Part shown: positions 14,813-43,700 of the stretch, piece by piece
Position numbering within the stretch: position 1 is the stretch's first letter
Layout: every line of letters starts with the position of its first letter
IMG/VR virus record: IMGVR_UViG_3300025133_008097
Span: 52,841 to 116,840 of that record
DNA length: 64,000 bases
Strand: one strand, 5' to 3'
From: a virus
Position numbers and translations under genes: made by a program
The notes under the pieces: model-generated
Databases searched by the model: none
Seen by the model: only the letters and a program-made list of their open reading frames with translations
Told to the model about the DNA's origin: nothing

Positions 14813-15178
14813 ATGAAACTAATAATGGAAAACTGGAAGAAGTTTTTGTCTGAGAGAGTAGAATTAGAAGATCTGCCCATCGGACCACAGCCTCTTCGGT
14901 TGCACAAAGAAGCCAATGCCCAGATTATTTTGGCTAAGGATAATCCGGGTCTTTTTGACCGGTCAAACGATCAATTTTGGTCCGAGGATCCCGGGAAGAT
15001 CGAGTACTATAAAGAAAGGGGCCGGGACATCACCCAAGACGACATCGACCGCGGCTTCTTCCGCGGGTGGAATGACGAACTAACGGTTGTAAATCAGGAT
15101 GGCGAGATAGTGGTGGGTAGCATCGAAAGCGAGTATGCTGACCTCGACCTCATCGTCGTAGCGCCGGCGCCCCAGTAA
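14813..15178 (+). CDS. small protein with putative capsid-targeting N-terminus
   Basis: The ATG at 14813 follows TAGGAGccca; an in-frame ATG at 14789 lies inside the primase gene and lacks a binding site. The product is 121 residues and starts MKLIMENWKKFLSE. This resembles the capsid-targeting sequence of T4 internal proteins (MKTYQEFIAE) and ends in L-x-E at residue 14, a consensus cut site for gp21-type prohead proteases. The remainder is acidic, with no known domain. It is the first of five consecutive small genes of this type. Internal head protein is an inference. Confidence 0.6.
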   Translation: MKLIMENWKKFLSERVELEDLPIGPQPLRLHKEANAQIILAKDNPGLFDRSNDQFWSEDPGKIEYYKERGRDITQDDIDRGFFRGWNDELTVVNQDGEIVVGSIESEYADLDLIVVAPAPQ

Positions 15179-15180
15179 AA

Positions 15181-15675
15181 ATGAAAATCTCAACTGCCCG
15201 CTTAAAGCAAATCATCCACGAGGAACTCTTTTATCGAGAGTTTCATCGCAAGACAGAACAACTCACGGAAGTAGAGTCAGAAAAACAGCGCCGTTATATG
15301 TGCGCAATGAAGGATTCGGACGACCGCCCGGAAGGCCTCTCGAAAGCAGAAGCAGAAGAAATGTGCACCGGACCAATGAAAGAAGCCAACCCGGCCCATC
15401 CGCGGGGATGGGAGCCACTCCCTCGTGGAGGCGACCCCGCGGCAAAGTTCCTTCAGAAGCTCAAGGCGGAAAAAGCAGCGATTGCGGCTGCAGCTGAGAG
15501 AAAAAAAAGAGGAGAAGCCTCGACACCAGCTAGCACCACCAATCTCAAGCGCTTTGATCGCGCCGCTCCTGAAGAAAAAGATCCGGAAAATGTTGGACTT
15601 GATACGCTGGAGATGACGGAAAAAGAGTATGAACAGTGGCGCGCCCGAGGATTCTTCGATAAGGATAAGTTTTAA
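15181..15675 (+). CDS. small protein with shared 14-residue N-terminus
   Basis: A 164-residue protein beginning MKISTARLKQIIHEEL; I-H-E at 12-14 fits the [L/I]-x-E prohead protease consensus. Residues about 38-65 (R-R-Y-M-C-A-M-K, then R-P-E-G-L-S-K-A-E-A-E-E-M-C) hold two cysteines in a motif I associate with small marine phage proteins of unknown function. The rest is charged and probably disordered or helical. It lies two bases after the previous stop with no clear binding site of its own, so it is probably coupled. Inferred to be a packaged internal protein. Confidence 0.6.
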   Translation: MKISTARLKQIIHEELFYREFHRKTEQLTEVESEKQRRYMCAMKDSDDRPEGLSKAEAEEMCTGPMKEANPAHPRGWEPLPRGGDPAAKFLQKLKAEKAAIAAAAERKKRGEASTPASTTNLKRFDRAAPEEKDPENVGLDTLEMTEKEYEQWRARGFFDKDKF

Positions 15676-15689
15676 AAGGAACAAATAAA

Positions 15690-16037
15690 ATGAAAATCAC
15701 CAAACAAAGACTAAAAGAGATTATCAAGGAAGAGCTTAATGAAGCCTCCAACCCGGAATGGGAGTCGGCCGACAAGATCCTCAGAGGTCTAGTATATCTG
15801 GCACAGGACCTAGAGGACAGCTCCAACGCTGACCCAGCAGGGCTTGCATTCGCAATCGTCGGAAAACTCCGCGAAGCCGTTGATGCTATGGAGCGACGCT
15901 TAAACGAGAAGTTTGCAGAGGTAGAAGACGAGGTTTCGGACGAAGAGGCTCTGGTACTCAAAGGGCCCCAGTTCGATCCACTTGGAGACTCTCTCCCTGC
16001 GCGCCGCCAGCGAGCATCAGTCCGGGGTCGGAAATAA
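15690..16037 (+). CDS. small protein with shared 14-residue N-terminus
   Basis: A 115-residue protein beginning MKITKQRLKEIIKEEL, with I-K-E at 12-14, behind an AAGGA binding site. After the N-terminus comes an unrelated helical region (residues 20-80) that includes A-M-E-R-R-L-N-E-K. The first 48 bases are almost identical to those of the next gene (three mismatches), although the rest of the two genes is unrelated. The stop and the next start overlap (TAATGA). No known domain. Inferred internal head protein. Confidence 0.6.
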   Translation: MKITKQRLKEIIKEELNEASNPEWESADKILRGLVYLAQDLEDSSNADPAGLAFAIVGKLREAVDAMERRLNEKFAEVEDEVSDEEALVLKGPQFDPLGDSLPARRQRASVRGRK

Positions 16038-16084
16038 TGAAAATCACCAAGCAAAGACTTAAAGAGATCATCAAGGAAGAGCTT
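15690..16084 (+). repeat. duplicated 48-bp 5' coding module (two copies)
   Basis: Bases 15690-15737 and 16037-16084 are 45 of 48 identical and encode the same 16 residues. Identity stops where the mature parts of the two proteins begin. This looks like recent duplication or exchange of a 5' module rather than duplication of whole genes. Confidence 0.8.
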
Positions 16085-16507
16085 TCCACAGTTCGCGAGA
16101 GCGACTGGTATGATGACGAAAACGAGACCCGCGCCGACAGGAAGTATGCCGACCGCGACGCCGGATTGGGAGATCTCCAGTCGGACGAAAAGTTCACAGG
16201 CGGTTCCCCCGAAGAACGGCTGCTCACGCTTATGAGAGCAAGAGAGGTTCTTGCGGCAATGAGTGAGGAAGATTTGGAAGAACTCAGTCTTAGCCTCGAC
16301 GGCGAAACTACCAGATGGCTTCAACACCTCCTCGCCAACCCGATGTATGCCCCCATGGAGGAGAAGTTCGAACGAAGGCGCTACGGCCAGTCCGCGAAAA
16401 AACCAAAGCCGAAGACCCCACGTGACGAGAAAAATCTGTCACAGCGTGAAAAAGATGCGCTCAATAGCGCCACCGGCAAGAAGAACCAAGGCCGCGGAGG
16501 CTACTAA
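16037..16507 (+). CDS. small protein with shared 14-residue N-terminus
   Basis: A 156-residue protein with the same first 16 residues as the preceding gene, MKITKQRLKEIIKEEL. The following region is acidic and disordered-looking, then comes a helical stretch (residues 60-95) and a Lys-rich tail ending in GRGGY. The start overlaps the previous stop. A 260-codon open frame on the opposite strand covers much of this and the previous gene but is a composition shadow. No enzymatic motif. The N-terminus suggests targeting to the prohead. Confidence 0.6.
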   Translation: MKITKQRLKEIIKEELSTVRESDWYDDENETRADRKYADRDAGLGDLQSDEKFTGGSPEERLLTLMRAREVLAAMSEEDLEELSLSLDGETTRWLQHLLANPMYAPMEEKFERRRYGQSAKKPKPKTPRDEKNLSQREKDALNSATGKKNQGRGGY

Positions 16508-16508
16508 A

Positions 16509-16787
16509 ATGAAGATTTCAAAAGCAAAGCTACGACAGATCATCAAGGAAGAGTTGGGAACTCTGCGGGAGGAAGACCCAGCGGAGGAAACAGCGCTTAA
16601 TAGTCCGCGGCAGGCTGGTAGGGAGTGGGCTATTAAGAATCTTCGCGTCGCCATCAACCGCGCTGCGGGAGCCGGACTGAGCAATGACGAAATCCGCAAG
16701 GTCATAGAGGATAAGATAGAGAGCGGCACCGAGCACGGACGCTTCACATCTACCGGACCTTGGGCTCCGGAATATAGGGATAAATAA
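16509..16787 (+). CDS. small protein with shared 14-residue N-terminus
   Basis: A 92-residue protein beginning MKISKAKLRQIIKEEL, with I-K-E at 12-14. The ATG at 16509 is one base after the previous stop; the longer open frame from 16263 overlaps the upstream gene and is not used. The rest is a short helical domain (W-A-I-K-N-L-R-V-A-I-N, then N-D-E-I-R-K-V-I-E-D-K-I) that could bind nucleic acid or protein; nothing in it is diagnostic. It is the last of the five tandem genes and ends just before a sigma-70 promoter. Confidence 0.6.
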   Translation: MKISKAKLRQIIKEELGTLREEDPAEETALNSPRQAGREWAIKNLRVAINRAAGAGLSNDEIRKVIEDKIESGTEHGRFTSTGPWAPEYRDK

Positions 16788-16796
16788 AAATAACAC

Positions 16797-16839
16797 TTGA
16801 CACCACCTCCCCATCCTGTATACTAGTATCATAGACTAG
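16797..16839 (+). promoter_or_regulatory. sigma-70 promoter with overlapping inverted repeat
   Basis: TTGACA (16797-16802), a 16-base spacer, and TATACT (16819-16824). The spacer is one base shorter than the usual 17; otherwise this is a near-consensus host promoter. Transcription should start near 16831. The inverted repeat CTAGT (16823-16827) / ACTAG (16835-16839) overlaps the -10 end and the start point, where an operator would lie. It drives the Mre11-Rad50 fusion gene, whose GTG start is 20 bases downstream of the predicted start point. Confidence 0.75.
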
Positions 16840-16850
16840 GGGATAACTAC

Positions 16851-19800
16851 GTGTATAAAATAGCACACCTTGCGGACACGCATATAAAGAATTTAAAATT
16901 TCATTACGAATACAAGAAGGTATTCGAACAACTTTACGAAACACTACGAAAAGAAAACGTAGATTACATCGTACACTGCGGCGACATCGCCCACACCAAG
17001 ACACAGATTTCACCAGAGTTCGTTGAGCTTTGCTCCGACTTCTTCGCAAATCTAGCGAAAATCGCGCCAACCTACATCATCTTGGGCAATCACGACGGCA
17101 ACTTAAAGAATAGCACCCGTCAGGACGCCCTGTCGCCAATTGTGAAGGCTTTAAACCTACCGGACCTACATCTGCTCAAGGAAGCCGGAGAAGTCCTTGT
17201 AGGGCCGCACATCGCCCTTAACGTGCTATCCGTCTTTGACGAGGATAATTGGGTGATGCCGACCGACCCGGAACGAATCAACATCGCACTTTATCACGGC
17301 TCTGTATCTGGCGTCAAAACCGACACCGGCTGGGTGATGACTCATGGCGATCACGACGTAGGAATTTTCGGTGGTCACGACTATGCTATGCTTGGCGACA
17401 TTCACAAGACAAATCAAATCCTCGACACCGAAGGTCGCGTGAGGTATTGCGGCTCAACCGTCCAGCAGAATCACGGCGAGACAAATGACAAGGGATTTTT
17501 GATTTGGGAAATTGAAGACAAAGACAAGTTTCGCGTGAGTCACCATGTTTTGCTCAACCCCAAGCCATTCGTAACAATCGAACTCACGCCAAAGGGGCGT
17601 ATGCCTAAGGGCACTAAGATCCCTCCCACGGCTCGACTTCGCCTCGTGAGCAATAATAATCTACCGCTTGATGTTATGCGTAAAGCTGTAGAGGTCGCTA
17701 AGCATCGTTTTAAGCCCGAGAGTATTGCGTTTCTTAATCGTGCAGCCGGCGAACGCGGTACAGTTGAGATCGGTACTGGCTTTAAGGTAGAAAATCTGCG
17801 AGACAAGGGCGTACAAGAGAATCTAATCCGTGAGTATCTCGTTGAATATCAGCCGAGCGAGAACATGCTTGAGAGAGTCTTCGAACTAAATCGGAAGTAC
17901 AACTCACAGATTGAAGAGACAGAAGAAGTCGCACGAAACGTTAATTGGAATATTAACAAGTTTGAGTGGGATAATCTCTTTAACTATGGTGAAGACAATA
18001 GTGTAGACTTTACTAAGCTAAATGGTATTGTGGGGATTTTTGGCAAGAACTATTCCGGAAAGTCTAGTATTATTGACGGAATGCTTTATACGATGTTTAA
18101 TACCACCTCCAAGAATGAGCGTAAAAACTACAACATCATCAACCAGAATAAAAAAGACTGCCGCGGCTGCGTGGAGTTACAAGTAGGTGATAAAGTATAT
18201 ACGATTGAGCGCAAGTCGGAGAAGTATGTTAAAAAGTTAAAAGGCGAAGTCACCAACGAGGCGAGGACCTTCTTAGATTTCTCGGGCCTCGATGCGGTAA
18301 TGGGAGAAGAATCGAGTCTTAACGGTACCACCCGTACCGAAACAGATGCACATATTCGTAAGCGTTTTGGCACAGTAGAGGACTTCTTACTAACTTCGAT
18401 GTCAAGTCAGCTCGATAGTTTATCTTTTATTAAGGAGGGATCCACGCGCCGCAAAGAAATTCTTGCTAAGTTCTTGGATTTAGACATTTTTGAGAAAAAG
18501 TTTAAGTTGGCTCACGAGGACGGCTCGGACTTAAAAGCCGTTCTGCGACGCGTGGGAGATACAGATTATAGTAATGACATAGCATTAGCCGAGGTCCAGC
18601 ACCTCGAAGCCAATCGCGCACTAGATAATGAAGTTGCGGCATGCGATCAACTCAGAGAGGGCCTGAGCGTGGCAGAGAAGGAATATGCAACACTCACAGT
18701 GCAGATCGATTCCATTCCCGCTGAGCGCTTGGATATTAAAAATCTCTTGGAAACTCGCTCTTCTCTGGAAAAGAAGGTTGAAGGGACTGATGTTAGCATT
18801 GTAGAACTTAAGTCGCAGAATCTTGACTATAACGAAAAGCTAAAAGACTACGACGACTTTTTGACAACTATCGATATCGAAGATCTTTTGGCTCAAAAGC
18901 AAGAGTTTGATGAGTTCAAGCAAAAATATGATGATACCCTTAATAAGGCGCGCCTCTTAGATAATGATTATAAGTCTATGAGCAAAAAACTAGACTTGTT
19001 GGATGAAGTACCATGCGGGGATAAATATCCCACGTGCCAGTTTATCCGGGACGCTCACTTGGCCGCGGTTGAACTGCCCTCCTTGGAGGTTGAAATTGTT
19101 GACAAGATTGAAGAGGCCAAAGGATATAAAAATATGACAATCTCTGTGGACTCGTTTCAAATGATTGAGCTTATTGAGCGTTATAATAATACCATTATTA
19201 AAAAGAACAATATTGAGATTGAGAAGCGCGATAACAAAGTCTCTATCGAGAAGCTATATGCGAAGATAAAAAGCTATCGAGACGCTCTTCGAACAACGAG
19301 TGAAAAGATTGAGTTATATGAAGAAAAGAAAGATTTAATTAAGAACATAGAAAGTCTTATTAACTCTCGTGACACGGTGGAAAGAAAAATAAAAGAGATG
19401 AGAGGAGAGCTTCTCGATGTCGAAGACTCGATTAATCTACACCACCGACAGCTTGGATCTATGGAACAAAAGGTTGAAGACCTTAAGGAAAAAAAGTTAG
19501 AGTTAGATGAAATACGGGAGGAATACGCAGCCTATGATTTGTTCATGCGCTGCACTCATTCTAATGGGATTGCTTACGATATTATCAAAAAGCGCCTACC
19601 AGTTATTAATGCTGAAATAGCGAAGGTATTGTCAAACATTGTTGACTTCGATGTCTTCTTCCAGGAAGACGGCCGCAAGCTCGACATCCTGCTCAAGCAT
19701 CCAAAGCACGACCCGCGGCCGATTGAGATGGGCTCCGGCGCCGAGAAAACTGTTACCGCGATGGCTATTCGCCTGGCTCTGCTCTCCGTGTCATCACTAC

Positions 19801-20003
19801 CTAAGGGAAATATTTTTATTCTCGATGAGCCTGGAACTGCCCTAGATGCAGACAACATGGAGGGGTTCATTCGAATCCTTCAGCTTATTAAGATGTATTT
19901 TAAAACTGTCATTCTTGTCTCTCATTTAGATTCTCTTAAAGATATCGTAGATGTGGAAATTACCATTGATAAGACAAATGGTTATGCCCGGGTCAGTCAG
20001 TGA
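16851..20003 (+). CDS. single-chain Mre11-Rad50 (gp47-gp46) nuclease-ATPase
   Basis: A 1050-residue fusion starting at GTG 16851 behind AGGGGAT. The N-terminal part is an Mre11/SbcD/gp47 phosphoesterase: LADTH (D9, H11), HCGDIAH, LGNHDG, and later histidine motifs in GDHD and GGHD. The C-terminal part is Rad50/SbcC/gp46: Walker A GKNYSGKSS (398-406), long coiled coils around a zinc hook (C722 and C729), ABC signature GSGAEKT (961-967) and Walker B FILDEPG (D992, E993). In T4 the two subunits are separate and process DNA ends for recombination-dependent replication. Here they are one chain. The hook cysteines are six residues apart rather than the usual two. The gene abuts the convergent J-domain gene with no gap. 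Confidence 0.93.
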   Translation: MYKIAHLADTHIKNLKFHYEYKKVFEQLYETLRKENVDYIVHCGDIAHTKTQISPEFVELCSDFFANLAKIAPTYIILGNHDGNLKNSTRQDALSPIVKALNLPDLHLLKEAGEVLVGPHIALNVLSVFDEDNWVMPTDPERINIALYHGSVSGVKTDTGWVMTHGDHDVGIFGGHDYAMLGDIHKTNQILDTEGRVRYCGSTVQQNHGETNDKGFLIWEIEDKDKFRVSHHVLLNPKPFVTIELTPKGRMPKGTKIPPTARLRLVSNNNLPLDVMRKAVEVAKHRFKPESIAFLNRAAGERGTVEIGTGFKVENLRDKGVQENLIREYLVEYQPSENMLERVFELNRKYNSQIEETEEVARNVNWNINKFEWDNLFNYGEDNSVDFTKLNGIVGIFGKNYSGKSSIIDGMLYTMFNTTSKNERKNYNIINQNKKDCRGCVELQVGDKVYTIERKSEKYVKKLKGEVTNEARTFLDFSGLDAVMGEESSLNGTTRTETDAHIRKRFGTVEDFLLTSMSSQLDSLSFIKEGSTRRKEILAKFLDLDIFEKKFKLAHEDGSDLKAVLRRVGDTDYSNDIALAEVQHLEANRALDNEVAACDQLREGLSVAEKEYATLTVQIDSIPAERLDIKNLLETRSSLEKKVEGTDVSIVELKSQNLDYNEKLKDYDDFLTTIDIEDLLAQKQEFDEFKQKYDDTLNKARLLDNDYKSMSKKLDLLDEVPCGDKYPTCQFIRDAHLAAVELPSLEVEIVDKIEEAKGYKNMTISVDSFQMIELIERYNNTIIKKNNIEIEKRDNKVSIEKLYAKIKSYRDALRTTSEKIELYEEKKDLIKNIESLINSRDTVERKIKEMRGELLDVEDSINLHHRQLGSMEQKVEDLKEKKLELDEIREEYAAYDLFMRCTHSNGIAYDIIKKRLPVINAEIAKVLSNIVDFDVFFQEDGRKLDILLKHPKHDPRPIEMGSGAEKTVTAMAIRLALLSVSSLPKGNIFILDEPGTALDADNMEGFIRILQLIKMYFKTVILVSHLDSLKDIVDVEITIDKTNGYARVSQ

Positions 20004-20705
20004 CTACAATCCAGGATATTCGAATCCGTAAATCTGTAAGAAGTAAAATTTAAGAGCACGGTTTTTAGCGTCGTCATCGCCCACATACCAGTGCCAAGCA
20101 GTAAGGTTGGCAATGCCGGCAATTGCTGCCAAGGTTCTTTTGATGTCTTCTTCGATCCATTCAATTTGCTCATCAGTGGGATCGTCGACAGACAAGTCTA
20201 GATCAATGGCTATGGAATATAATACGTACCAATTTTGATTGTCATACGCCTCTTTAGCTCGCATAAAGATTCGTTCTAGTCTAAGGATCTCCTTCTCAGA
20301 GAACCCGCTGGCCCGGACCTTATCTGGGTGCGTCTCGGCAGCTATGCGTCGAAACAACTTTTTAAGTTCCACCTCTTTTTTTATCTTGGGAACAGCCTCT
20401 TCGTCTTCGTCTTCTGGCTCGCTGTCCGTTGGCACAAGATCCGTACAGTCGGATTCGTTGCTTTCTTCTATAAGTTGTGGGGGCTCTTCTTCTGCTGGCT
20501 GCGGGGGCGCCTGAGGGGTGACGGCAACCTGTTCGGCTAATCTGGTTTGTTCTTCCTCCGGGAGTTCTCTCACTAGTCGCGAAACCTCCTCCTGGAATTC
20601 CAGGATGGCGTCCTTAGAGAGTTCTTGATGATACTCTAAATCAGCATGCACAAACTCTGCATTTTTGAGGGTTTTTTTCAATTTGTACTTAAGTTGTTTA
20701 GACAT
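20004..20705 (-). CDS. J-domain (DnaJ-like) protein
   Basis: A 233-residue protein and the only minus-strand gene in the window. Residues about 112-165 form a J domain: a basic helix II (L-K-K-L-F-R-R-I-A-A-E-T), the diagnostic H126-P127-D128 loop, then helix III with A-K-E-A-Y-D. J domains stimulate the ATPase of Hsp70/DnaK, so this protein may recruit the host chaperone, as DnaJ does in lambda replication. The first 50 residues are helical and residues 60-105 are acidic and Pro-rich. There is no Gly/Phe region or zinc domain. A GGGGAG binding site precedes the start. Its stop directly abuts the stop of the Mre11-Rad50 gene. Confidence 0.85.
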   Translation of the reverse strand: MSKQLKYKLKKTLKNAEFVHADLEYHQELSKDAILEFQEEVSRLVRELPEEEQTRLAEQVAVTPQAPPQPAEEEPPQLIEESNESDCTDLVPTDSEPEDEDEEAVPKIKKEVELKKLFRRIAAETHPDKVRASGFSEKEILRLERIFMRAKEAYDNQNWYVLYSIAIDLDLSVDDPTDEQIEWIEEDIKRTLAAIAGIANLTAWHWYVGDDDAKNRALKFYFLQIYGFEYPGL

Positions 20706-20744
20706 ACTTCTCCCCTCTGTCTAATTAGTGTAAAGGAGTAGAGC

Positions 20745-20930
20745 ATGAGACACATTATAGATAAGGGACTAGAGAAACTAGTTTCCCGAAAGTTGTTAGC
20801 GTGGACAACGGCCACGAGCTTGTTGTTGTTTTCTGATCTGACATCCAGCGATTGGGTAATCATTACTACAGTTTATATTGGAGGCCAGACCATCATCGAT
20901 GCAGTTGCGAAGCTTAAAGGTTATAAATAA
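20745..20930 (+). CDS. small two-span membrane protein, holin candidate
   Basis: A 61-residue protein behind AAAGGAG. Two hydrophobic segments (about residues 17-33 and 37-52) are separated by a short polar turn, with a Lys-rich C-terminus. Size and topology fit a class II holin, but such small membrane proteins also have other roles. It heads three consecutive membrane protein genes (20745-21801), an arrangement typical of a lysis cassette. No endolysin is recognised nearby. It diverges from the J-domain gene across a 39-base gap that must hold both translation signals. Confidence 0.5.
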   Translation: MRHIIDKGLEKLVSRKLLAWTTATSLLLFSDLTSSDWVIITTVYIGGQTIIDAVAKLKGYK

Positions 20931-21340
20931 TGACCTGGATAAAATTTAGAACGGGTGCAAAAAAAGCGTGGCTTTGGGCGAAGAAGTTTTGGTGGGTGAT
21001 AGTTATCGGCCTCCTCTTCTTATGCGCGTGTTTTCTAGGGGCGCTTACTCGAAACGGCGCATTGCTCGCCGGAGTCCTAGATTTAATGGAAGCGAAGAGA
21101 GACCAGCACGACCAGGAGATGGAGACTCTCACCCAGATCCACAACGAGGAAGTCTCTGCGAAAAATGCGCGCCTTGAAGAACACCTTAAAAGGCGCGCCG
21201 AACTAGAAGCAGAATTTGCCAAAAGAGGCGAAACCCTCGATAAACAAAAAGAAGCGGAGCTTAAAAGACTGATTGACGAGAGTTATAATGATCCCGAGAA
21301 GCTAGCTAAAGAGTTGGCGGAAGCTTTTGGATTGAAATAA
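20930..21340 (+). CDS. membrane-anchored coiled-coil protein, i-spanin-like
   Basis: A 136-residue protein. One transmembrane segment (about residues 21-41, WWVIVIGLLFLCACF) follows a short basic N-terminus. A long charged helix (residues 55-125) is probably a coiled coil. This layout matches inner-membrane spanins (Rz type), which span the periplasm in the last step of lysis. I see no outer-membrane lipoprotein partner with a lipobox. The start overlaps the upstream stop (TAATG) and the stop overlaps the next start. The lysis role is inferred. Confidence 0.45.
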   Translation: MTWIKFRTGAKKAWLWAKKFWWVIVIGLLFLCACFLGALTRNGALLAGVLDLMEAKRDQHDQEMETLTQIHNEEVSAKNARLEEHLKRRAELEAEFAKRGETLDKQKEAELKRLIDESYNDPEKLAKELAEAFGLK

Positions 21341-21801
21341 TGATTAGAAAAATATTATCCCTTTACTTAATAGTCTTTTTGGCCTTCCCGGTGGTAGCCT
21401 TCGCAGAGGAAGAGTCTTCTCCGGATTATGTAGTTCTCCCCATAGAGGCGGGCGACATCGTGCCATTCGATGGAGTTCTTTTATCTCTCGATGCTGCAGC
21501 AAAGATTGTAACCGAGAAAAAGTTCGAGGGAGCCGAGTGCGATCTGCGCATCAGCTATGAGCTTCACATGCAAGGAGAGAGATTTCAGCTGCAGCTTGAT
21601 TACAAAGATATTGAAATTCACTCCTGGAAGGATAAATACGAGTCCATGATGATTCTCAAAGTCGCTGAAAACGATCGCCTAACAGAGCTAGTTTTAAAGC
21701 AGAAGCCTGCCCAAGGTCCGCTTCTTGTGGCATTGGGTTTTGGCATCGGTACACTTACATCTTTGGGAATCTTTGCTTTATCTACCGAAATAGTTAAATG
21801 A
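21340..21801 (+). CDS. signal peptide protein with C-terminal membrane anchor
   Basis: A 153-residue protein. Residues 1-22 are a typical signal peptide (basic start, hydrophobic core, cleavage after A-F-A). The periplasmic part is charged and helical (residues 45-115) with one cysteine, and a second hydrophobic segment lies at about 126-147. There is no lipobox, so it is not a lipoprotein spanin. I associate similar phage proteins with lysis or tail regions but know no proven function. Its stop overlaps the start of the fibre gene (ATGA). Confidence 0.5.
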   Translation: MIRKILSLYLIVFLAFPVVAFAEEESSPDYVVLPIEAGDIVPFDGVLLSLDAAAKIVTEKKFEGAECDLRISYELHMQGERFQLQLDYKDIEIHSWKDKYESMMILKVAENDRLTELVLKQKPAQGPLLVALGFGIGTLTSLGIFALSTEIVK

Positions 21802-24008
21802 CAATCTCGCAAGCCGATTCCCGCGGAAGGCTTTTGCGCTTTCTTATCGATAACCTGGGACAGGAAATATCGAGCGGGAGCCTTGCGGGTTCCGGTAGTT
21901 TTGTTGCGGTAAACTCGGACGATGAGCTTGTCTTAGCGCGGCCTTTAACCGGCGCCGGTATTTCGTGGGACGGTTCAACCGCAAACGGCGTTGCTACCTA
22001 TAAGGATGCCGACGAGGCAACTGTTGAATCAAACCTCACTTTTGACGGATCCACCCTTACTGTTACGGGCGATGCTAGTATCTCGGGCGACGTGCACATT
22101 GGCCAATACATCTATCACATTGACGATACTGACACCAAAATCGGCTTCGGTACCAATACTCAAATCTATACTTGCCAGAACAGCGAACGCCTTAAATTAA
22201 ACTCCACCGGCGTTGGTATGATGGGAGCCACACCGATTGCGGGACTAGCTATCACAGGAGATTTAACTATCTCGGGAGATACCACACTTGGAGACGCGTC
22301 GGGAGATTCGCTTACCATCAATGCTCAAACTATCAATCCAGCTAATATTGACACCGGCACCGACAACTCGGTTGTAGTCTATAACGGCAGCAGTCTGGTG
22401 ACGGACGAAATCGATTCTCGCGTCTGGGGGTCCACTCTTGTCGATGCTTCTGGAACCCCTGCAGATAATCAGGTGGGAATCTGGACGGATGCCAACACCA
22501 TGGAAGGCAGTTCAAACCTGACTTTTGATGGCACTGATCTTACGGTTGCGAACGATTTGATATTAGGCAGCGACATTATTCACTCTGGTGATACTGACAC
22601 CAAAATCGGCTTCGGTGCCAATACTCAAACCTATACTTGCCAGAACAGCGAACGTCTTAAGTTAAACTCCACCGGCGTTGGTATGATGGGAGCCACACCG
22701 ATTGCGGGACTAGCTGTCACAGGAGATTTAACTATCTCGGGAGATACCACTGCCACCTCCGGGTCCTTTAGCGATGTCACCCTCACCAGCCACACTGGTA
22801 TTATAGGAACGAATTCCCACAGAACCATAATCCACAACAACAACGGAGGCTACCTAGAGGCTAAAACAGGTCATGCTACTTATGGTTTTATAATTAGGGA
22901 CTACAACAGCGAAGGCTGGGCTAATATAACTACCAACAATGGGCTGCTTCAGCTAGCTTATAACAATAACAGCACAACTGATGGCATTTTTCTTAACGAT
23001 TCCGACAACGTTGGTATCGGAGACAGCTCCCCCTCCTATAAGCTGGATGTGAATGGAACACTTAGAGCTACAGGAGATATGTATGCAGATGGCGAGCTGA
23101 CCGTCACCTCCGACCTCGACGTCCGCGGCGACACCTTCCTCGACGGAGCGATCATCCTCGGAGGGCAATCGTCCCTCGGTACCGGGATGCGAGCAGAGTT
23201 TCGAAACACCGGAGGCCAGACATATTCAAGCTTCAATGGTGTCTACTGGGAATCCTGCATAGCGAACAACTCCCATGCCCGGACTGTCTTAACGAATGAG
23301 GCGTACGAAGACAACGACGTAGTTGGACCCGGGATCTATTCGAGTAATATTTATTGGTTTTGGAAGTACACGGCCGCCGCCACCACATATCGCGTGATCA
23401 CCTCGGGAACTTCTTTTACTTTTACAGGACAGCACTTAACAGTTCCAATGGATTCAGCCATTAGTTCGTCATTGTCTGATTACGTGGGACTTATAGCGGT
23501 GTCGTCAGGCAATCAGATGCGGTGGGATGAGATAAAAGAAGAGTGGGTTACTGGATCAGAAGCTGTGACTATTAATGAAACACTTCCTCGCATTGAATTA
23601 GCTACGAGCCGTGCCGATAAAAGAGTGTTTGGAGTTATAAGCAATCGTCCTGATAATTATGTTGTCAACAGCGAGACAAACGAAATCGAAGAGGACCAGG
23701 ACGGCATGGCTTATTCCTGGAACGATTTAAAGCAAACTCAGATTCGAGTCAACTCTTTAGGAGAAGGCGCTATCTGGGTATGCAACATCAATGGCAATCT
23801 AGAAAATGGCGATTATATTACAAGCTGCGAAGTTCCGGGATTGGGAATGAAACAAGACGACGACCTACTTCACAACTATACAGTGGCCAAGATTACGCAG
23901 GCTTGCGATTTTAGGATTAACGCCTCTAACTATAATGTGGTAGAATTTGAACATAGCGGCAGCACCTACAGAAAAGCATTTGTCGGCTGCACCTATCACT
24001 GTGGATAA
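21798..24008 (+). CDS. tail fibre-like protein, 736 aa
   Basis: The N-terminal two thirds is a repetitive beta-structured shaft with phrases such as NLTFDGSTLTVTGD, DLTISGDTT and VGIGDSSPSYKLDVNGTLR, typical of trimeric phage fibres. A 155-residue block occurs twice with near-identical DNA. The C-terminal 200 residues form a separate domain containing cysteines near its end (C-T-Y-H-C-G). The start overlaps the upstream membrane gene (ATGA). It is a likely receptor-binding or peripheral tail protein; the host receptor cannot be inferred. Confidence 0.75.
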   Translation: MTISQADSRGRLLRFLIDNLGQEISSGSLAGSGSFVAVNSDDELVLARPLTGAGISWDGSTANGVATYKDADEATVESNLTFDGSTLTVTGDASISGDVHIGQYIYHIDDTDTKIGFGTNTQIYTCQNSERLKLNSTGVGMMGATPIAGLAITGDLTISGDTTLGDASGDSLTINAQTINPANIDTGTDNSVVVYNGSSLVTDEIDSRVWGSTLVDASGTPADNQVGIWTDANTMEGSSNLTFDGTDLTVANDLILGSDIIHSGDTDTKIGFGANTQTYTCQNSERLKLNSTGVGMMGATPIAGLAVTGDLTISGDTTATSGSFSDVTLTSHTGIIGTNSHRTIIHNNNGGYLEAKTGHATYGFIIRDYNSEGWANITTNNGLLQLAYNNNSTTDGIFLNDSDNVGIGDSSPSYKLDVNGTLRATGDMYADGELTVTSDLDVRGDTFLDGAIILGGQSSLGTGMRAEFRNTGGQTYSSFNGVYWESCIANNSHARTVLTNEAYEDNDVVGPGIYSSNIYWFWKYTAAATTYRVITSGTSFTFTGQHLTVPMDSAISSSLSDYVGLIAVSSGNQMRWDEIKEEWVTGSEAVTINETLPRIELATSRADKRVFGVISNRPDNYVVNSETNEIEEDQDGMAYSWNDLKQTQIRVNSLGEGAIWVCNINGNLENGDYITSCEVPGLGMKQDDDLLHNYTVAKITQACDFRINASNYNVVEFEHSGSTYRKAFVGCTYHCG
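22125..22750 (+). repeat. 161-bp direct repeat inside fibre gene (two copies)
   Basis: Bases 22125-22285 and 22590-22750 differ at five positions over 161 bases, offset by 465 bases (155 codons). They encode the same segment around G-F-G-T/A-N-T-Q and N-S-E-R-L-K-L. Such repeats can lengthen or shorten the shaft by in-frame recombination. Confidence 0.9.
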
Positions 24009-24009
24009 A

Positions 24010-24393
24010 ATGAGTAAAGACCAAGATTACATAGCCAAACTAGAGCGCGCCATCTCCCAGAAATATGGTGATGAGACAGTGAACAATCCTAAAAGATTTT
24101 GGGATGACCAAAAAGAAAAAGAATACCTCGCACAGTCTCAAGAGGAGCACCGTAAATTTTCTAAGATTGCCGAAACCAAAGACAAAGTCGAACAAGATGG
24201 ATTTTTAATAAATAAAAAACTACTTAATAGAGATGCAAATCGAAGCTGTCCTGTTTGTAAAACATATTCTTTTCATCCCCAAGATGATTTGTATATGAAT
24301 AAGTTTGAATGTTGTCAGACTTGTTATATAGCATGGGTTGAAGGACGAGAAGAGAGATGGCTAGGTGGCTGGAGGCCAAGCGGTGAGAATTAG
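24010..24393 (+). CDS. small zinc-ribbon protein
   Basis: A 127-residue protein from the ATG at 24010, one base after the fibre stop; the in-frame ATG at 23947 lies within the fibre gene and is not favoured. The N-terminal half is a charged helix that includes K-Y-G-D-E-T-V-N-N-P. The C-terminal half has a four-cysteine ribbon: CPVC, then C-C-Q-T-C, likely binding one zinc ion. I associate this arrangement with small conserved marine phage proteins of unknown function. The end overlaps the next gene by 11 bases. Confidence 0.65.
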   Translation: MSKDQDYIAKLERAISQKYGDETVNNPKRFWDDQKEKEYLAQSQEEHRKFSKIAETKDKVEQDGFLINKKLLNRDANRSCPVCKTYSFHPQDDLYMNKFECCQTCYIAWVEGREERWLGGWRPSGEN

Positions 24394-24640
24394 CAATACA
24401 GAATTAGAGAAGATCATCAAAGAAGAAATTAACGAGGGCTTGAGGACTTCAATGAGGCGCGCCCGTTCTGCGCAAGAAATAGCCGATGCTCTGAAACAAC
24501 TTGAAAAAATAATGATTCACCTTCTTGACCAAAAGAGGCGTTCCGATCCTGGAACCCCCGAACACGATGGCGCCAAAGAGCAGATGGCCCGCATTGCGGA
24601 ACTGGCTCAAGAATATGCATATAGGAACGAGATGCAATGA
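24383..24640 (+). CDS. small protein with shared 14-residue N-terminus
   Basis: The GTG at 24383 is chosen because GGAGG lies eight bases upstream and because the product then begins MRISNTELEKIIKEEI, aligning with the family at 15181-16787; I-K-E again falls at 12-14. An upstream GTG at 24365 gives a longer frame without this fit. The product is 85 residues, mostly one charged helix. The stop overlaps the next start (ATGA). Likely a packaged internal protein by analogy with its relatives. Confidence 0.6.
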   Translation: MRISNTELEKIIKEEINEGLRTSMRRARSAQEIADALKQLEKIMIHLLDQKRRSDPGTPEHDGAKEQMARIAELAQEYAYRNEMQ

Positions 24641-24912
24641 GAATTTCTAAATCCCGTTTGCGCGAGATCATTTTGGAGGAGCTGGAGGAAACCCCAACTC
24701 CAGAGCTCATCGAATCAGAGATTCTGTCGGAGAACATGTTAGCTACGTTAGCCCCCAAGATAATGGAGTTTATCATTAAGAATCCAAAAATGCTGCAGCT
24801 GCTTTCTAATGCAATGCTGCCAGCAATTATGAAGGCTATGGGTGGCGACGAGAAGACAGGCGGGGCATCTGATATGCAGTCGATGATGGCTAGCTTAACA
24901 CAAGAGGAGTAG
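24637..24912 (+). CDS. small protein with shared 14-residue N-terminus
   Basis: A 91-residue protein beginning MRISKSRLREIILEEL, with I-L-E at 12-14. The rest is acidic, then a Met/Leu-rich helical stretch (about residues 30-70) that includes K-I-M-E-F-I-I-K-N-P-K-M-L-Q-L-L, then a flexible tail with repeated Met. The hydrophobic helix could bind membrane or protein. It is coupled to the gene before it. With 24383 it forms a second group of the N-terminal family, next to the terminase and portal genes. Confidence 0.6.
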   Translation: MRISKSRLREIILEELEETPTPELIESEILSENMLATLAPKIMEFIIKNPKMLQLLSNAMLPAIMKAMGGDEKTGGASDMQSMMASLTQEE

Positions 24913-27033: not shown

Positions 27034-28995
27034 ATGGCAGGCAAAAACGGAAGTAACCCGAGAAATCCAGATTCTCCATTATTTAAGAGATTAACTAGAT
27101 TATTCTCGGGCCCCATTGTAAACTATCGAGCTCAAATCGCTCGACAAGAACGCCGTAATGATTTAGATAAGTATCGATATCGTTTCCGTTCACTGAGCGG
27201 TCAAGAGTTCAAGCGCGCCACAGACAATCTTTCCAAGAATTATAATCTCTTGTCATCGCATGCGATGCGCAACCAGAACCGCGGGGAGAGATACCAAGAC
27301 TTTGATCAGATGGAGTATATGCCAGAGATCGCTTCAGCAATGGATATCTATGCCGACGAGATGACGACGTCTAATGAGTTTGACCAGCTTCTTACAATAG
27401 ACTGTCTTAATCTTGAAATTAAGACCATTTTAGAAACTCTTTTTTATGATGCATTAAACATCGAGTTTAATGCTTTTGGTTGGGCCCGCTCAATGGTTAA
27501 GTTTGGAGATTTCTTTTTATATTTGGATGTCGACGAGCAGATCGGCGTCAAATCAGTTATCGGATTACCCAGTTCTGAATTAGAGAGACTAGAAGGACAG
27601 GACCCGACAAATCCAAATTATGTACAGTTCCAGTGGAACGGCGCTGGTATGACCTTTGAAGATTGGCAGGTCGCTCATTTTCGTATTTTAGGTAATGATA
27701 AGTATAGTCCTTATGGGACATCAGTCCTGGACTCCGCCCGCCGCATCTGGCGCCAGCTTGTGTTAATTGAGGATGCCATGATAGCATACCGCGTAGTGCG
27801 TGCCCCCGAACGTCGGGTCTTTAAGATTGACGTAGGAAATATTCCACCGCAGGATGTCCCCCAATACATGGAGAAGGTGAAGACCGAGATGAAGCGTAAC
27901 CAAATGGTGAACGCTTCTACTGGTCGCGTAGATTTGCGTTACAATCCTCTATCTCTAGAAGAGGACTATTTCATTCCGATGCGGGGCGGGGTGGGCTCCG
28001 ATATTACTTCGCTACCTGGCGCCAAATCTTTGGATGATATTGAGGATGTTAAGTATTTGAGAGACAAGCTGTTCGCAGCCCTTAAGGTGCCGCAGTCTTA
28101 CCTCACCAACCTAGACGGAGACAACGAAGACAAAACTACGTTAGCTCAAAAGGACATTCGGTTTGCCCGAACCATCCAGCGCCTTCAGAGAGCCCTGATT
28201 TCTGAACTAGAAAAAATCGCAGTTGTTCATCTTTATACTATTGGCTTCCGGGGCGAGGACCTGGTGAGTTTTAAATTAGCTCTCAACAATCCCTCCCGGC
28301 TTGCGGAATTACAGCAACTGGAGTATATGCGTACCAAGTTTGATATTGCAAACTCGGTTCCCGAAGGGGTCTATAGCAAGCGTTGGCTTTCCAAAAACAT
28401 TTTGGGAATGTCGGACGAAGAATTCTTGCGCAATCAACGAGAGTCCTTTTATGATAAGAAATATCAGCAAGCTCTCGAAGGAGTACAAGAACAAGCGGCC
28501 GCAGACGAGATGGGCGGGGGTCTAGGCGGCGATCTTGGAGGCGACCTCGGAGGAGACCTCGGAGGAGATCTCGGTGGCGAAGACCTTGGAGGCGCCGCAG
28601 GAGGCGAAGAAGGGGGCGCCGAAGGAGGTGAAGACTCTGCACTTCTGACAGCTCCTGCTCGCCGCGAGGATCGACCTGGCCCGGCCCAAGATAGAATCTC
28701 GCGCCGACCAGACGGCCGTCGCGCTGGCGGCCCTTCGCGTCGCCATCTTCGAAGTCTTGTGGCCCCCGAAGTTCCCACTGGTCGAGCAGAGAAACGACGC
28801 GTCGGCCATTCCATTGGTCGCGTTGGTGTACCCGATCTTCGAGCCTTAGTTAGTCTACAAGAGAATGATGCATCTATTTATACTAAGGACGAGGCAGTAT
28901 TAATGGAAAGTACCACCAACATCCAGCGACTTATAGCTCAACTGGAGAGCAAAGAGAAAGAGGCGGAACAGGATGAAACACAACAAGAAACGTAA
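27034..28995 (+). CDS. portal protein (gp20-like)
   Basis: A 653-residue protein with the features of T4-type portals: Y-M-P-E-I-A-S-A-M-D-I-Y-A-D-E near residue 105, the W-x-V-A-H-F-R-I-L-G strand, V-R-A-P-E-R-R-V-F-K-I-D-V-G-N, and K-V-P-Q-S-Y-L. Twelve copies form the packaging vertex and later connect to the neck. From about residue 492 there is a Gly-Gly-Asp-Leu tandem repeat, then an Arg/Pro-rich stretch that looks odd but starts with ALLTAPARRED, which I recall from related portals. The end overlaps the next gene by 23 bases. Confidence 0.92.
   Translation: MAGKNGSNPRNPDSPLFKRLTRLFSGPIVNYRAQIARQERRNDLDKYRYRFRSLSGQEFKRATDNLSKNYNLLSSHAMRNQNRGERYQDFDQMEYMPEIASAMDIYADEMTTSNEFDQLLTIDCLNLEIKTILETLFYDALNIEFNAFGWARSMVKFGDFFLYLDVDEQIGVKSVIGLPSSELERLEGQDPTNPNYVQFQWNGAGMTFEDWQVAHFRILGNDKYSPYGTSVLDSARRIWRQLVLIEDAMIAYRVVRAPERRVFKIDVGNIPPQDVPQYMEKVKTEMKRNQMVNASTGRVDLRYNPLSLEEDYFIPMRGGVGSDITSLPGAKSLDDIEDVKYLRDKLFAALKVPQSYLTNLDGDNEDKTTLAQKDIRFARTIQRLQRALISELEKIAVVHLYTIGFRGEDLVSFKLALNNPSRLAELQQLEYMRTKFDIANSVPEGVYSKRWLSKNILGMSDEEFLRNQRESFYDKKYQQALEGVQEQAAADEMGGGLGGDLGGDLGGDLGGDLGGEDLGGAAGGEEGGAEGGEDSALLTAPARREDRPGPAQDRISRRPDGRRAGGPSRRHLRSLVAPEVPTGRAEKRRVGHSIGRVGVPDLRALVSLQENDASIYTKDEAVLMESTTNIQRLIAQLESKEKEAEQDETQQET
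28512..28590 (+). repeat. tandem GGDL-coding repeat in portal gene
   Basis: At least four near-identical 12-base units encode Gly-Gly-Asp-Leu in the portal C-terminal tail, followed by a further Gly/Glu/Ala-rich run. It is likely a flexible acidic linker whose length could vary by replication slippage. Confidence 0.75.
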
Positions 28996-31429: not shown

Positions 31430-32035
31430 GTGGCACAACTCCTACGAGAATACTATGAACTATGCGAAGGCGGTATCTGTCAGGATCTGCTGACGGAAGC
31501 CGAAAAGCGTTTCGTCAAAGAAGGCGGAATGATGCTCACCGGCAAACTTCAGGAGTGTGATGTTCAGAACGGTAACGGTCGAGTATACCCGGCGCCGATT
31601 CTCACTCGGGAAGTGAAGAAGTATGCGGGGATAGTGCAAGACAATCGGGCCCTAGGAGAACTAGATCATCCTGAGTCTTCTATTATTAACCTCACCAACG
31701 TTTCTCACATGATGACGGAAGTTTGGATGGACGGCCCGAGCGTGATGGGGAAGGCTAAAGTTCTCAATACACCATCAGGTCAGATACTCCGTTCTCTGGT
31801 GGAGTCAGGCGTTAAGATCGGAATCTCTTCTCGTGGTATGGGCTCGGTTACTGAACAGCAGGGCAAAACGATGGTAGAGGATGACTTTCAATTGATCTGT
31901 TTTGATATTGTATCAGAACCGTCGACGCCCAACGCCTTTATGGGACTTTCTGAAAGTAAGTTAATGAATGAAAATGTGGCGCGCAACAACCGGATCGTAG
32001 CGCTACTCAACGATATTATTGGAGAAGGGTCATGA
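31430..32035 (+). CDS. prohead core protease (gp21-like)
   Basis: A 201-residue serine protease of the T4 gp21 type. It begins at GTG 31430 behind AAGGA. The conserved blocks are NGNGRVYP, ALGELDHPES (H80) and GVKIGISSRGMGS (S133 or S134), the last two holding the probable catalytic His and Ser; a third catalytic residue is likely in the following strand. In T4 this enzyme cuts head proteins after [L/I]-x-E during maturation. That consensus fits the capsid protein site proposed at E59 and the small proteins with the shared N-terminus. The stop overlaps the next start. Confidence 0.9.
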   Translation: MAQLLREYYELCEGGICQDLLTEAEKRFVKEGGMMLTGKLQECDVQNGNGRVYPAPILTREVKKYAGIVQDNRALGELDHPESSIINLTNVSHMMTEVWMDGPSVMGKAKVLNTPSGQILRSLVESGVKIGISSRGMGSVTEQQGKTMVEDDFQLICFDIVSEPSTPNAFMGLSESKLMNENVARNNRIVALLNDIIGEGS

Positions 32036-33183
32036 TGACTGAAGAAGAGATTGCAGTTTTTGAGGGGAAGATAGCGAATTGGTTTTCGGGAGCTTTTAGT
32101 CAAGGCCGCCGCAAAGGATCACCCCCGGCAATGCCTAAGGCTTCCGGCGGAGCACCCTCTCCCACGACACCAGATCCCGATCCGGGCCCCGGCCCGGGCA
32201 CTGATCCAGGTCCAGACCCCGACCCCGGGCCAGAGCCCGGGCCAGAGCCCGGGACCACCGAATTAAGTAAAGATGCTCCTCTTTCTATAACTAAGCGCCA
32301 GCCGCAACTTCGCGTGGGCCCCGGTAATAACCCCCAACAACAAGCTGCCGGCGGACAAAAAGAGGCGCCCCTGGTGATGCAGCTGCAAAAGCTTGGCCTA
32401 TCACAGCCCGTCGCCCAGCAGCTTGCTAAGACAATAGCGCAGTACTTTAAGCGGCGCACTGATATATCAGTTCCTGTCGCTGAAGAAATTGCGGCTTTGA
32501 TGATGCCGGTGCTGGTGGAGCAGTTAGTTAAGGGTCTCATGAATGAGGCGCGCCCCGAATATCGAAAGCGATTTGACAGCTCTTTAAGAGGAATCAAAGC
32601 CGCTAAAGCAAGACTTACGAAGGCGGAGAAAGAACATGAGGCCTCAGCAGACAAACGCTTTACTCGTGATGAACTTCGTGCCGCTAAAGCTAATTTTGAA
32701 ACGGCCGCGGCAGGATATGAGGCTATTGAGAAAGATTTAGAGGGACTTAAGCACTCCGAAAAAGGCGCCAAAGCTGCAAAAGCTTTGGACAAGCAGCGTC
32801 AAGGCGCACGCATTCGTGGGATGGGTGGCAAGGATACTGGCCATGCGGGTTCATCTCGGGCTAAAGGTATCATCGACAAAATTCTCACCCGTTTCGTTGC
32901 GGACAACCAGCAGCTTCTGGCGAAGGATGAAAAACTACAGGCCATTTTCTCGGGTGACGACGATGGTCGCGCACTCAATGCGTTGCGCAAATCTATCATT
33001 AATTTGCTTCGACGTCAAATGAAGCGCCGCGGCTACGATGCCGCTGAGATTAAAAAGTTAGTAAACGAATCTGTTTTAATGGTGGGCAGGTTTATACTAG
33101 AAGAGATGACAACTAACGAAAAAATCCGAATGCTGGAAGAGAATCGACTAAATCGATGGAAAGTATTATCAGGCATTAAATGA
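32032..33183 (+). CDS. core-like protein with Pro-Gly-Asp repeat
   Basis: A 383-residue protein starting at ATG 32032 (ATGA overlap) or ATG 32035. Residues about 43-77 are a repetitive run of Pro, Gly, Asp and Glu. The remainder is helical: L-G-L-S-Q-P-V-A-Q-Q-L-A-K, then long Ala/Lys/Glu helices from 170 to 260 that look like coiled coil, then a basic region near G-I-I-D-K-I-L. I know of no proven function. Its place after the protease suggests a head core or internal role. The main scaffold candidate is the gene at 42591. Confidence 0.5.
   Translation: MMTEEEIAVFEGKIANWFSGAFSQGRRKGSPPAMPKASGGAPSPTTPDPDPGPGPGTDPGPDPDPGPEPGPEPGTTELSKDAPLSITKRQPQLRVGPGNNPQQQAAGGQKEAPLVMQLQKLGLSQPVAQQLAKTIAQYFKRRTDISVPVAEEIAALMMPVLVEQLVKGLMNEARPEYRKRFDSSLRGIKAAKARLTKAEKEHEASADKRFTRDELRAAKANFETAAAGYEAIEKDLEGLKHSEKGAKAAKALDKQRQGARIRGMGGKDTGHAGSSRAKGIIDKILTRFVADNQQLLAKDEKLQAIFSGDDDGRALNALRKSIINLLRRQMKRRGYDAAEIKKLVNESVLMVGRFILEEMTTNEKIRMLEENRLNRWKVLSGIK
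32158..32265 (+). repeat. Pro-Gly-Asp/Glu coding repeat
   Basis: An imperfect short repeat of CCx-GGx and CCx-GAx codons encodes alternating Pro-Gly, Pro-Asp and Pro-Glu. It is GC-rich against its surroundings and creates a long spurious open frame on the minus strand. It is probably an extended linker. Confidence 0.75.
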
Positions 33184-33614
33184 AAAAATCAGACCTAAAA
33201 AGAATCCTCAAGCCTCTTATTCGAGAGTGTGTAAAAGAGGTGATTTTGGATGAGGGAGTTCTTGCCGGAGTAATTTCAGAGGTGGCCGTGGGCCTAACTG
33301 CCACCCACTCAACTGCCCCACCCATTGTGGAACAGGCAGACCCGGTCCGGGAGCGACTGCAGCAGAATGCTTTTTCCAACAAACAGAATAGCACATTAAA
33401 ACAGCAAAAACAGCAGTTAATGCAAGCGGTGGGAAGGCAAGCCTATAACGGCGTCGATCTCTTTGAGGGGACCACCCCGGCTCCTGCGCAGGGAAGTGTG
33501 ACTCAGCCCGGAGGGGACCCTTCGCATGCGGGGGTAGATATTAGCAGCTTGTTTGGGTCAGTCGGAAAAAATTGGAATGCTCACATGGACAATGTGAAGG
33601 AAGATACACAATAG
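33180..33614 (+). CDS. conserved small head-region protein
   Basis: A 144-residue protein starting within the previous stop (ATGA). The N-terminal helix MKKSDLKRILKPLIRECVK continues into E-V-I-L-D-E-G-V-L, a pattern I associate with marine myovirus head clusters; function unknown. It has [I/L]-x-E at residues 14-16, so it may be processed by the prohead protease. The middle is Gln-rich (Q-Q-K-Q-Q-L-M-Q) and the C-terminal third is Gly/Pro-rich with a hydrophobic S-S-L-F-G-S-V-G end. Confidence 0.55.
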   Translation: MKKSDLKRILKPLIRECVKEVILDEGVLAGVISEVAVGLTATHSTAPPIVEQADPVRERLQQNAFSNKQNSTLKQQKQQLMQAVGRQAYNGVDLFEGTTPAPAQGSVTQPGGDPSHAGVDISSLFGSVGKNWNAHMDNVKEDTQ

Positions 33615-42590: not shown

Positions 42591-43700
42591 ATGTCTTCGT
42601 TGTTAGAAGAAGCTATTGTTGACGCTAAAGCGCTTAAGGAAGCGGCATTAAAAAATGCCGAAACTGCTGTATTGGAAAAGTATTCAAGCGATGTAAAGCG
42701 CGCCCTAAACACTTTGTTAGAGCAGGAGGAAGACCCAACGGATATGGGCGACCTCGGTGGCGACTTGGACATGGGCCTTGGAGGCGGCGATGTTGCGCCC
42801 CCCACTGAACCGGGTGATGCATCCTTTTTAGAGGAAACTCCCTACGCATTTCAAACTGAGGAGCTTGATGCTCCTGCAGCGGATGAAATTGTAGAAATCG
42901 ATTTTGATGAATTGAAGACCCGTCTCGAAGAAGAAGAGGCCGAAGGAGAAATGGGATCCCCGGATGACATACTCGGGTCCGAAGACGTTGCAATGGAACT
43001 TCAGGAAGATGGGTATATTACGCCCCGCGAACTCGAAGATGACAGCGATGAAGATGTGGCGTCAGAGTTAGCCGAAGACGAAGATATTGAACTTTCGGAA
43101 GAGATGATTGATTCTTTGGTCAGCGAACTTCTTAATGTTGATATGAATCCAGAACTTCAGGGATGGTCCTCCCTAGGCTCCGCTTATAATAGTACGGAGC
43201 AGGCCAATAATGATGAAATGGCTGCAGCCGCAGCGGCCCACCTCGACGAAGACGAGGAATTAGAAGAGAAAGCAGAGACGGTTTCAACACCGGACGATGT
43301 CGATCTTTATGAGGCAAAAATCAAGAATCTTAATGTTTCTGTTAGAGAGCTACACGCTCTGTTACAAGAGGCCAAGGTCCAACTGAAAAGTTTGAACTTG
43401 GCAAATGCCAAACTTGTTTACCAAAACAAGGCATTAGGCAGCACCTCCTTGAATGAGCGACAAAAAACTAAAATTGTCGAAGCTGTTAGTCGTGCCAATT
43501 CGGCTCAAGAAGCGAAAATCTTGTTTGAAACCATTCAAAACGCAGTGAGCGTCTCGAACTCTACGAATAGTTCTAGGCCACAAACACTTCGTGAAGCAGT
43601 TTCCAAGCATACATCTTTGCTCCTGAGTGCTCAGAAAGAAAGTAAGGCAACCCCAGATCCTAGAATGGATCGAATGCTGCGTTTAGCAGGATTAGACTAA
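42591..43700 (+). CDS. prohead scaffold / core protein (gp22-like)
   Basis: A 369-residue, very acidic protein directly before the major capsid gene, where T4 places gp22. The N-terminus is helical (L-L-E-E-A-I-V-D-A-K-A), the middle is an Asp/Glu/Gly-rich region, and the C-terminal part from about residue 246 is a coiled coil with A-K-L-V-Y-Q-N-K-A-L followed by L-N-E-R-Q-K-T-K-I-V-E-A-V, a pattern typical of gp22-type core proteins. Such scaffolds fill the prohead and are degraded by the gp21-type protease; several [L/I]-x-E sites are present. Confidence 0.8.
   Translation: MSSLLEEAIVDAKALKEAALKNAETAVLEKYSSDVKRALNTLLEQEEDPTDMGDLGGDLDMGLGGGDVAPPTEPGDASFLEETPYAFQTEELDAPAADEIVEIDFDELKTRLEEEEAEGEMGSPDDILGSEDVAMELQEDGYITPRELEDDSDEDVASELAEDEDIELSEEMIDSLVSELLNVDMNPELQGWSSLGSAYNSTEQANNDEMAAAAAAHLDEDEELEEKAETVSTPDDVDLYEAKIKNLNVSVRELHALLQEAKVQLKSLNLANAKLVYQNKALGSTSLNERQKTKIVEAVSRANSAQEAKILFETIQNAVSVSNSTNSSRPQTLREAVSKHTSLLLSAQKESKATPDPRMDRMLRLAGLD

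Follow-up and report, generated by a model that had tools for sequence, protein, structure and literature searches.

The closest described counterparts of the proteins considered here are the internal proteins of phage T4, which act against type IV restriction enzymes as injected inhibitors with no homology to one another; in relatives of T4, the signal sequence has revealed ten or more such proteins (PMC12373910). T4 internal-protein propeptides are 10–19 residues long; residues 4 and 7 of the leader matter for targeting, residues 8 and 10 for processing, and the protease gp21 cleaves after L/I-X-E (PMC9026906). In the T4 genome, the IPII and IPIII genes encode this leader as MKTYQEFIAE. In the giant phage SPN3US, too, many head-internal proteins are cut by the prohead protease (gp245) and ejected into the host; the abstracts of these reports describe no comparable shared short leader, a contrast drawn from the descriptions (PMC7411985, PMC10052503).

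We analyzed a window of 64,000 nucleotides, bases 52,841–116,840 of the 116,840-base IMG/VR record IMGVR_UViG_3300025133_008097. As in the case of T4 IPI, IPII and IPIII, it encodes unrelated small proteins with a short N-terminal leader ending in [LI]xE, together with a gp21-type protease. A sequence-only reading had assigned a single shared N-terminus to seven such genes. All seven start positions were borne out, [IL]xE does end at residue 14 in every protein, and the bodies (residue 15 on) proved mutually unrelated, the best pairwise E value being 1.3. The leaders, however, fall into two families rather than one, six being of a type that we call class B and one of class A, and this coexistence of two classes in one genome is itself unlike T4.

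The class A gene (14813..15178, plus strand; leader 14813–14854) starts with MKLIMENWKKFLSE, that is, MKLI-MENWKKFLSE, the final ten residues of which line up with MKTYQEFIAE. The match covers all four functional positions of the T4 leader (aromatic 4, F7, I/L 8 and E10): counted from Met5, positions 4, 7, 8 and 10 are W, F, L and E, with four extra residues, MKLI, ahead. MENWxxFxxE occurs in at least 119 IMG/VR stretches and, among the matches listed, is nearly always preceded by KL[IL]. Met5 was considered as the true start of 14813 and rejected, because KL[IL] is conserved before MENW in most class A genes; the upstream start is thus the right one. A pattern scan of cultured phages for T4-type leaders found both T4 genes. 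It is plausible that class A leaders are of the T4 type. The protein encoded at 14813 is predicted to be cut after E14, and its body suggests no function from sequence.

The six class B genes, all on the plus strand, conform to the pattern M[KR]I[ST]x3Lx2IIxEE (first residue taken as M). They are 15181..15675 (leader 15181–15222), beginning MKISTARLKQIIHE and followed by a body with a shuffled ESEKQRRYMCAMKD...EMCTGPMKE module; 15690..16037 (leader 15690–15731) and 16037..16507 (leader 16037–16078), which share an identical leader, MKITKQRLKEIIKE, written in partly different codons; 16509..16787 (leader 16509–16550), beginning MKISKAKLRQIIKE; 24383..24640 (leader 24383–24424), with a GTG start and the sequence (M)RISNTELEKIIKE; and 24637..24912 (leader 24637–24678), beginning MRISKSRLREIILE. 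When the whole 116,840-base record was scanned on both strands, the strict motif followed 6 of 10,861 ATG, GTG or TTG triplets, with no further start outside the window; it appeared in none of 123,160 residue-shuffled N-termini. None of the seven bodies reached the Pfam cut-off. We also noted a lone reverse-strand gene at 20004–20705 (minus strand) that resembles the DnaJ domain weakly (PF00226, E = 0.003, under the cut-off).

The class B consensus, MKITKxxLKxIIKEE, differs from the T4 leader in sequence and spacing, lacks an aromatic residue and has 14 residues instead of 10. Proteins bearing it are consequently treated here as functional analogues of the T4 internal proteins and not as members of that group. 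The pattern is found in at least 120 IMG/VR stretches, compared with none for the same codons in scrambled order. Across 28 motif-bearing records (the window's own included), the strict pattern gave 1–16 class B genes per record, many more at the upper end than in T4; the reversed control pattern gave one match in 42 records. Class B was absent from 14 random records, including two with both an S77 (gp21-type) protease and a gp23-type capsid protein. A 288-kb record (G007) had 16 class B genes, 12 of them in one tight array (G007:C1:52581-58201), and locus L361 contains a leader copy that is internal and in frame, apparently through fusion.

Outside viral records, 257 billion bases of prokaryote genomes gave only nine class B stretches, all in metagenome-assembled bins. 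NHDW01000006.1 (L278/L282/L284; Methylococcaceae TMED69 bin) and PBIO01000025.1 (L279/L281; Halobacteriovorax bin) each have several class B genes; these two bins also hold an S77 gene, so the contigs look like misbinned phage. The pattern scan detected no class B leader in T4, Flavobacterium phage immuto, RM378, Mel-JY01, two cyanophages or Melnitz, and gave ten matches in an uncultured 484-kb phage. A tblastn search of cultured phages with the leader peptides returned nothing, a result probably blunted in part by short queries and low-complexity filtering, and pattern scans therefore replaced tblastn for leader detection. The literature searched, which had most subscription journals and bioRxiv outside its scope, contains no printed mention of either motif, and priority is not established.

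To avoid circularity, conservation was scored on residues other than those used for selection. E was found at position 14 in 437 of 447 ORFs picked on residues 1–12 only, and K2, I3, T4 and L8 were each kept in 93–99% of 322 ORFs picked only on Met1 and residues 11–16. Leaders on unrelated bodies were more similar within a locus (0.64) than between loci (0.55; permutation maximum 0.575). In 36% of within-locus comparisons, identical leader residues were encoded by different codons, indicating that conservation acts on the protein sequence. Each phage therefore has its own class B dialect, maintained at the protein level, as expected if one recipient must accept all the cargo of a phage. Amphipathicity of the presumed helix was weak (0.35 at 100 degrees vs 0.31 when shuffled) and supports no claim.

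Genome-specific dialects would also be expected if the genes were simply duplicated copies with fast-diverging bodies, or a DNA-level recombination cassette, the 5' end being kept for translation or recombination and not for targeting. Mosaic genes with exchanged leaders and bodies (L351, L353, L357 and L388) fit that account: L351 couples the 16037 body with a leader of the 16509 type, and in L353 the N-terminal part of 16037 is followed by the C-terminal part of 16509. The codon differences, however, speak against conservation of the DNA, and leaders are still present on distant homologous bodies. In addition, two unrelated leader sequences serve homologous bodies: an AAA_33 kinase has a class A leader at L168 and a class B leader at L088 (pairwise E = 2e-21), and a GNAT domain has class A at L175 and class B at L027 (E = 7e-23). 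We give this explanation almost no credence.

The bodies themselves, 323 from class B and 98 from class A proteins of the fetched loci, formed 308 clusters, of which 258 were singletons. For 15181, 15690, 16037 and 16509, all complete homologous bodies that were found had a class B or class-B-like leader, in a homologue set that came partly from leader-based scans and is biased towards finding leaders. Thirteen relatives of 16037 had invariant leader residues M1, I3, L8, I12, E14 and E15, an indel-rich linker and a conserved helical body (approximately residues 58–103). A low-confidence structure model of 16037 (mean pLDDT 58, usable for layout only) has a helix at residues 5–18, disorder at 19–57 and helices from 58 onward; no solved structural relative was found at E ≤ 0.1. 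We further observed that the ESEKQRRYMCAMKD...GLSKAEAEEMCTGPMKE module of 15181 (residues ~28–70) recurs with 55–77% identity in about ten otherwise different leader-bearing proteins and looks like a shuffled domain, and that another domain, GEGSMARSQL...EEWVESKITKA, occurs in bodies under both leader classes (L170, L092, L046, L055 and L213).

Among 140 longer bodies there were four GNAT, three AAA_33 and two Zeta_toxin domains, and one each of protein kinase, sigma-70 region 2 and cytidylyltransferase; most bodies matched nothing, and PADLOC gave few matches, all weak. The sigma-70 region 2 (PF04542, E = 9e-11) follows a class B leader in L112:2124-3272, whose product is a possible head-carried sigma factor.

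The record has a T4-like head module comprising portal, terminase and gp23-type capsid genes. In the window, the portal gene is at 27034..28995 (plus strand; phrog_213, 4e-75) and the major capsid gene at 43725..45563 (plus strand; PF07068, 1.5e-71). The protease that the sequence-only reading had placed at 31430 is indeed of the gp21 type (31430..32035, plus strand; PF03420, E = 1.7e-30; phrog_207, E = 3e-55), and its N-terminus holds a motif, DLLTE23↓A (the arrow marks a presumed cut), that is conserved in relatives and is a possible self-cleavage site. The gene directly before the capsid gene (42591..43700, plus strand) occupies the position of T4 gp22 and recurs in relatives; on these grounds it is a scaffold candidate, with no family match, and its product might be the docking partner of the leaders. 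Separately, the gene before the protease (30674–31426) starts with MARRKNVKRIDPRYFLHE↓T, its counterpart at L310 having RIDPRYFLNE↓T, possibly a third kind of cleavable N-terminus.

Of 27 class B records, 23 had an S77 protease gene, compared with 2 of 14 random ones (p = 1.6e-5). The four exceptions also lack gp23 and are most likely fragments missing the head module. Of 24 class A records, 14 have S77; nine of the other ten lack gp23, and the tenth has it at a contig edge. Occurrence of the motif without the protease, named beforehand as evidence against head loading, was thus found in no record holding an intact head module. However, S77 was present in two of the six random records of at least 49 kb, and in that comparison p rises to 0.02, indicating that the co-occurrence is confounded by lineage. 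Gene position is less affected: of 140 class B genes, 69 are found in the 18 kb upstream of S77, where 20.6 are expected and 5,000 random shifts gave at most 60.

The presumed cut after residue 14 could be compared with the processing sites of structural proteins. Capsid proteins of the gp23 type keep ENQAK[EQ]LL[RK]E↓[AST], or a close form of it, at the expected end of the propeptide, which in the window is predicted to be QAKELLRE59↓SSS. The stretch KELLRE↓S resembles the class B end, KEIIKE↓E, and comes 18th among the 37,208 positions scored with the class B profile. Similar in form are the T4 gp22 start, MLKEQLIAE↓AQ, and the gp24 N-terminus, MAKINELLRE↓ST, which we take to be cut after E10. 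On account of these resemblances, the IIKE that ends at residue 14 appears to be a genuine site. The T4 propeptides sit on single shell or core proteins and not on a family of unrelated bodies.

The residue after E14, on the other hand, is E in 89% of class B proteins, unlike at class A sites, and the leaders usually carry a second site in register, which the T4 internal proteins do not. A second hydrophobic-x-E is present in six of the seven window proteins: LNE18↓AS in 15690, VRE21↓SD in 16037, LRE21↓ED in 16509, INE18↓GL in 24383, LEE18 in 24637 (with LIE26 and LSE32 beyond it) and, in 15181, only LTE30; 14813 has none. Within the family, 57% of class B leaders have [LI]xE ending at residues 16–26, compared with 7–13% in stretches further along. 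Residue 22 is E in 77 of 106 cases when residue 20 is L or I, and in 43 of 211 otherwise (p = 1.5e-19), an association that is absent for D or K/R at position 22. The residues following the second sites are small (G, A or S), as at known sites. Consequently, the cut after residue 14 proposed at the outset stands as one candidate, a second selected site at residues 18–22 in most class B proteins being another; cleavage may occur at E14, at the second site or at both.

Five of the seven genes lie, as the sequence-only reading had pointed out, beside replication genes, between a primase-like gene and a fused metallophosphatase/SMC-type gene (gp47/46 type). This setting would suit an N-terminal helix that docks onto a different phage structure or complex, such as the replication machinery, and the lineage-confounded association with S77 would then reflect only a shared T4-like ancestry. 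Such a role is hard to reconcile with in-register, E-specific sites of the protease type, with the resemblance of the leader to the capsid propeptide end, with the exchange of T4-like class A for class B leaders on homologous bodies and with the clustering of leader genes towards the head module. We regard it as improbable.

A closer competitor accepts that the leaders target the prohead but makes the proteins accessory core or scaffold parts, akin to T4 gp67, that would be chopped up and gone before or during DNA packaging instead of being injected. The mature parts of the seven window proteins have pI values of 4.3–6.1 (family median 4.75); T4 gp67 has a pI of 4.05, whereas IPII and IPIII are basic (pI ~9.6). 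The acidic bodies leave room for a core-protein role, a basic body being a possible hallmark of the T4 internal-protein family. Several proteins also contain more than one [LI]xE, 24637 having three more. In relatives, a class A or class B gene lies between portal and protease, the slot of gp67 and gp68 in T4, in 11 of 41 head modules, and this slot is used by both classes. Given the leader density, this count may not be far above chance, so that the 18-kb test is the stronger one. Finally, the small gene just after the protease (33180..33614, plus strand), which recurs in most of the 41 modules, has the best class-B-like N-terminus of any non-member by profile, MKKSDLKRILKPLIRECVKEVILDE↓G (presumed cut after E25), and may encode a core protein or represent the ancestral form of the leader.

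Unlike the leader-bearing proteins, gp67 and gp68 share no leader, and leader genes are also found in arrays elsewhere, with changing bodies. None of the seven window genes lies between portal and protease, and the bodies in that slot differ among relatives instead of being conserved across the clade. Against a core or scaffold role, the hypervariability of the bodies is unlike conserved core proteins, and the folded enzymes or sigma-like factor among them fit better as cargo. We consider this alternative unlikely, though less so than the two discussed above.

Overall, the shared N-termini are, with good probability, prohead-targeting leaders of a system like that of the T4 internal proteins. 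Leader conservation on unrelated bodies, interchange of the two classes, co-occurrence with S77, proximity to the head module, use of the portal–protease slot by both classes, E-specific sites in register, resemblance to the capsid propeptide, dialects and the T4 alignment all support this reading; the lineage confounding, with two records that have S77 and gp23 but no class B, the acidic bodies, E as the residue after E14, the failure to detect a T4-like late promoter (TATAAATA) near the leader genes and the absence of class B from the cultured phages scanned count against it. The original idea of prohead loading and gp21-type cleavage of diverse proteins is thus independently supported, except in its details of one family and a cut at E14. 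We infer that, late in assembly, the class A or the longer class B leader would dock the protein on the prohead core through a binding partner, and that the S77 protease would then cut after [IL]xE (E14 or the site at residues 18–22), releasing the body into the head interior. Surviving bodies would then be packaged alongside the DNA, retained in the virion and probably delivered to the host as early-acting effectors. Judging from the sequences, loading into the head is likely, whereas injection together with the DNA is plausible.

In our best reading, class B represents a form of the T4 internal-protein system that uncultured T4-like phages employ, with a leader distinct from that of T4. If so, the T4 targeting principle would be exploited to a much greater extent than T4 itself exploits it, through two or more types of leader and frequent shuffling of leaders and bodies. 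More tentatively, and with slightly less than even confidence, the two interchangeable leaders may act as cassettes that recombination sets in front of new domains. Each phage would in this way assemble its own collection of head-loaded proteins, numbering up to 16 or more; enzymes would be among them, as would a sigma-70-like factor able to influence host transcription when the DNA enters. If the best reading is right, a 14-residue motif, readable from sequence alone, would flag phage proteins in their hundreds, so far without annotation, as cargo of the head and allow candidate injected host-takeover and counter-defence proteins of uncultured phages to be listed directly, and the leader would provide a compact tag for probing what the prohead core recognizes.
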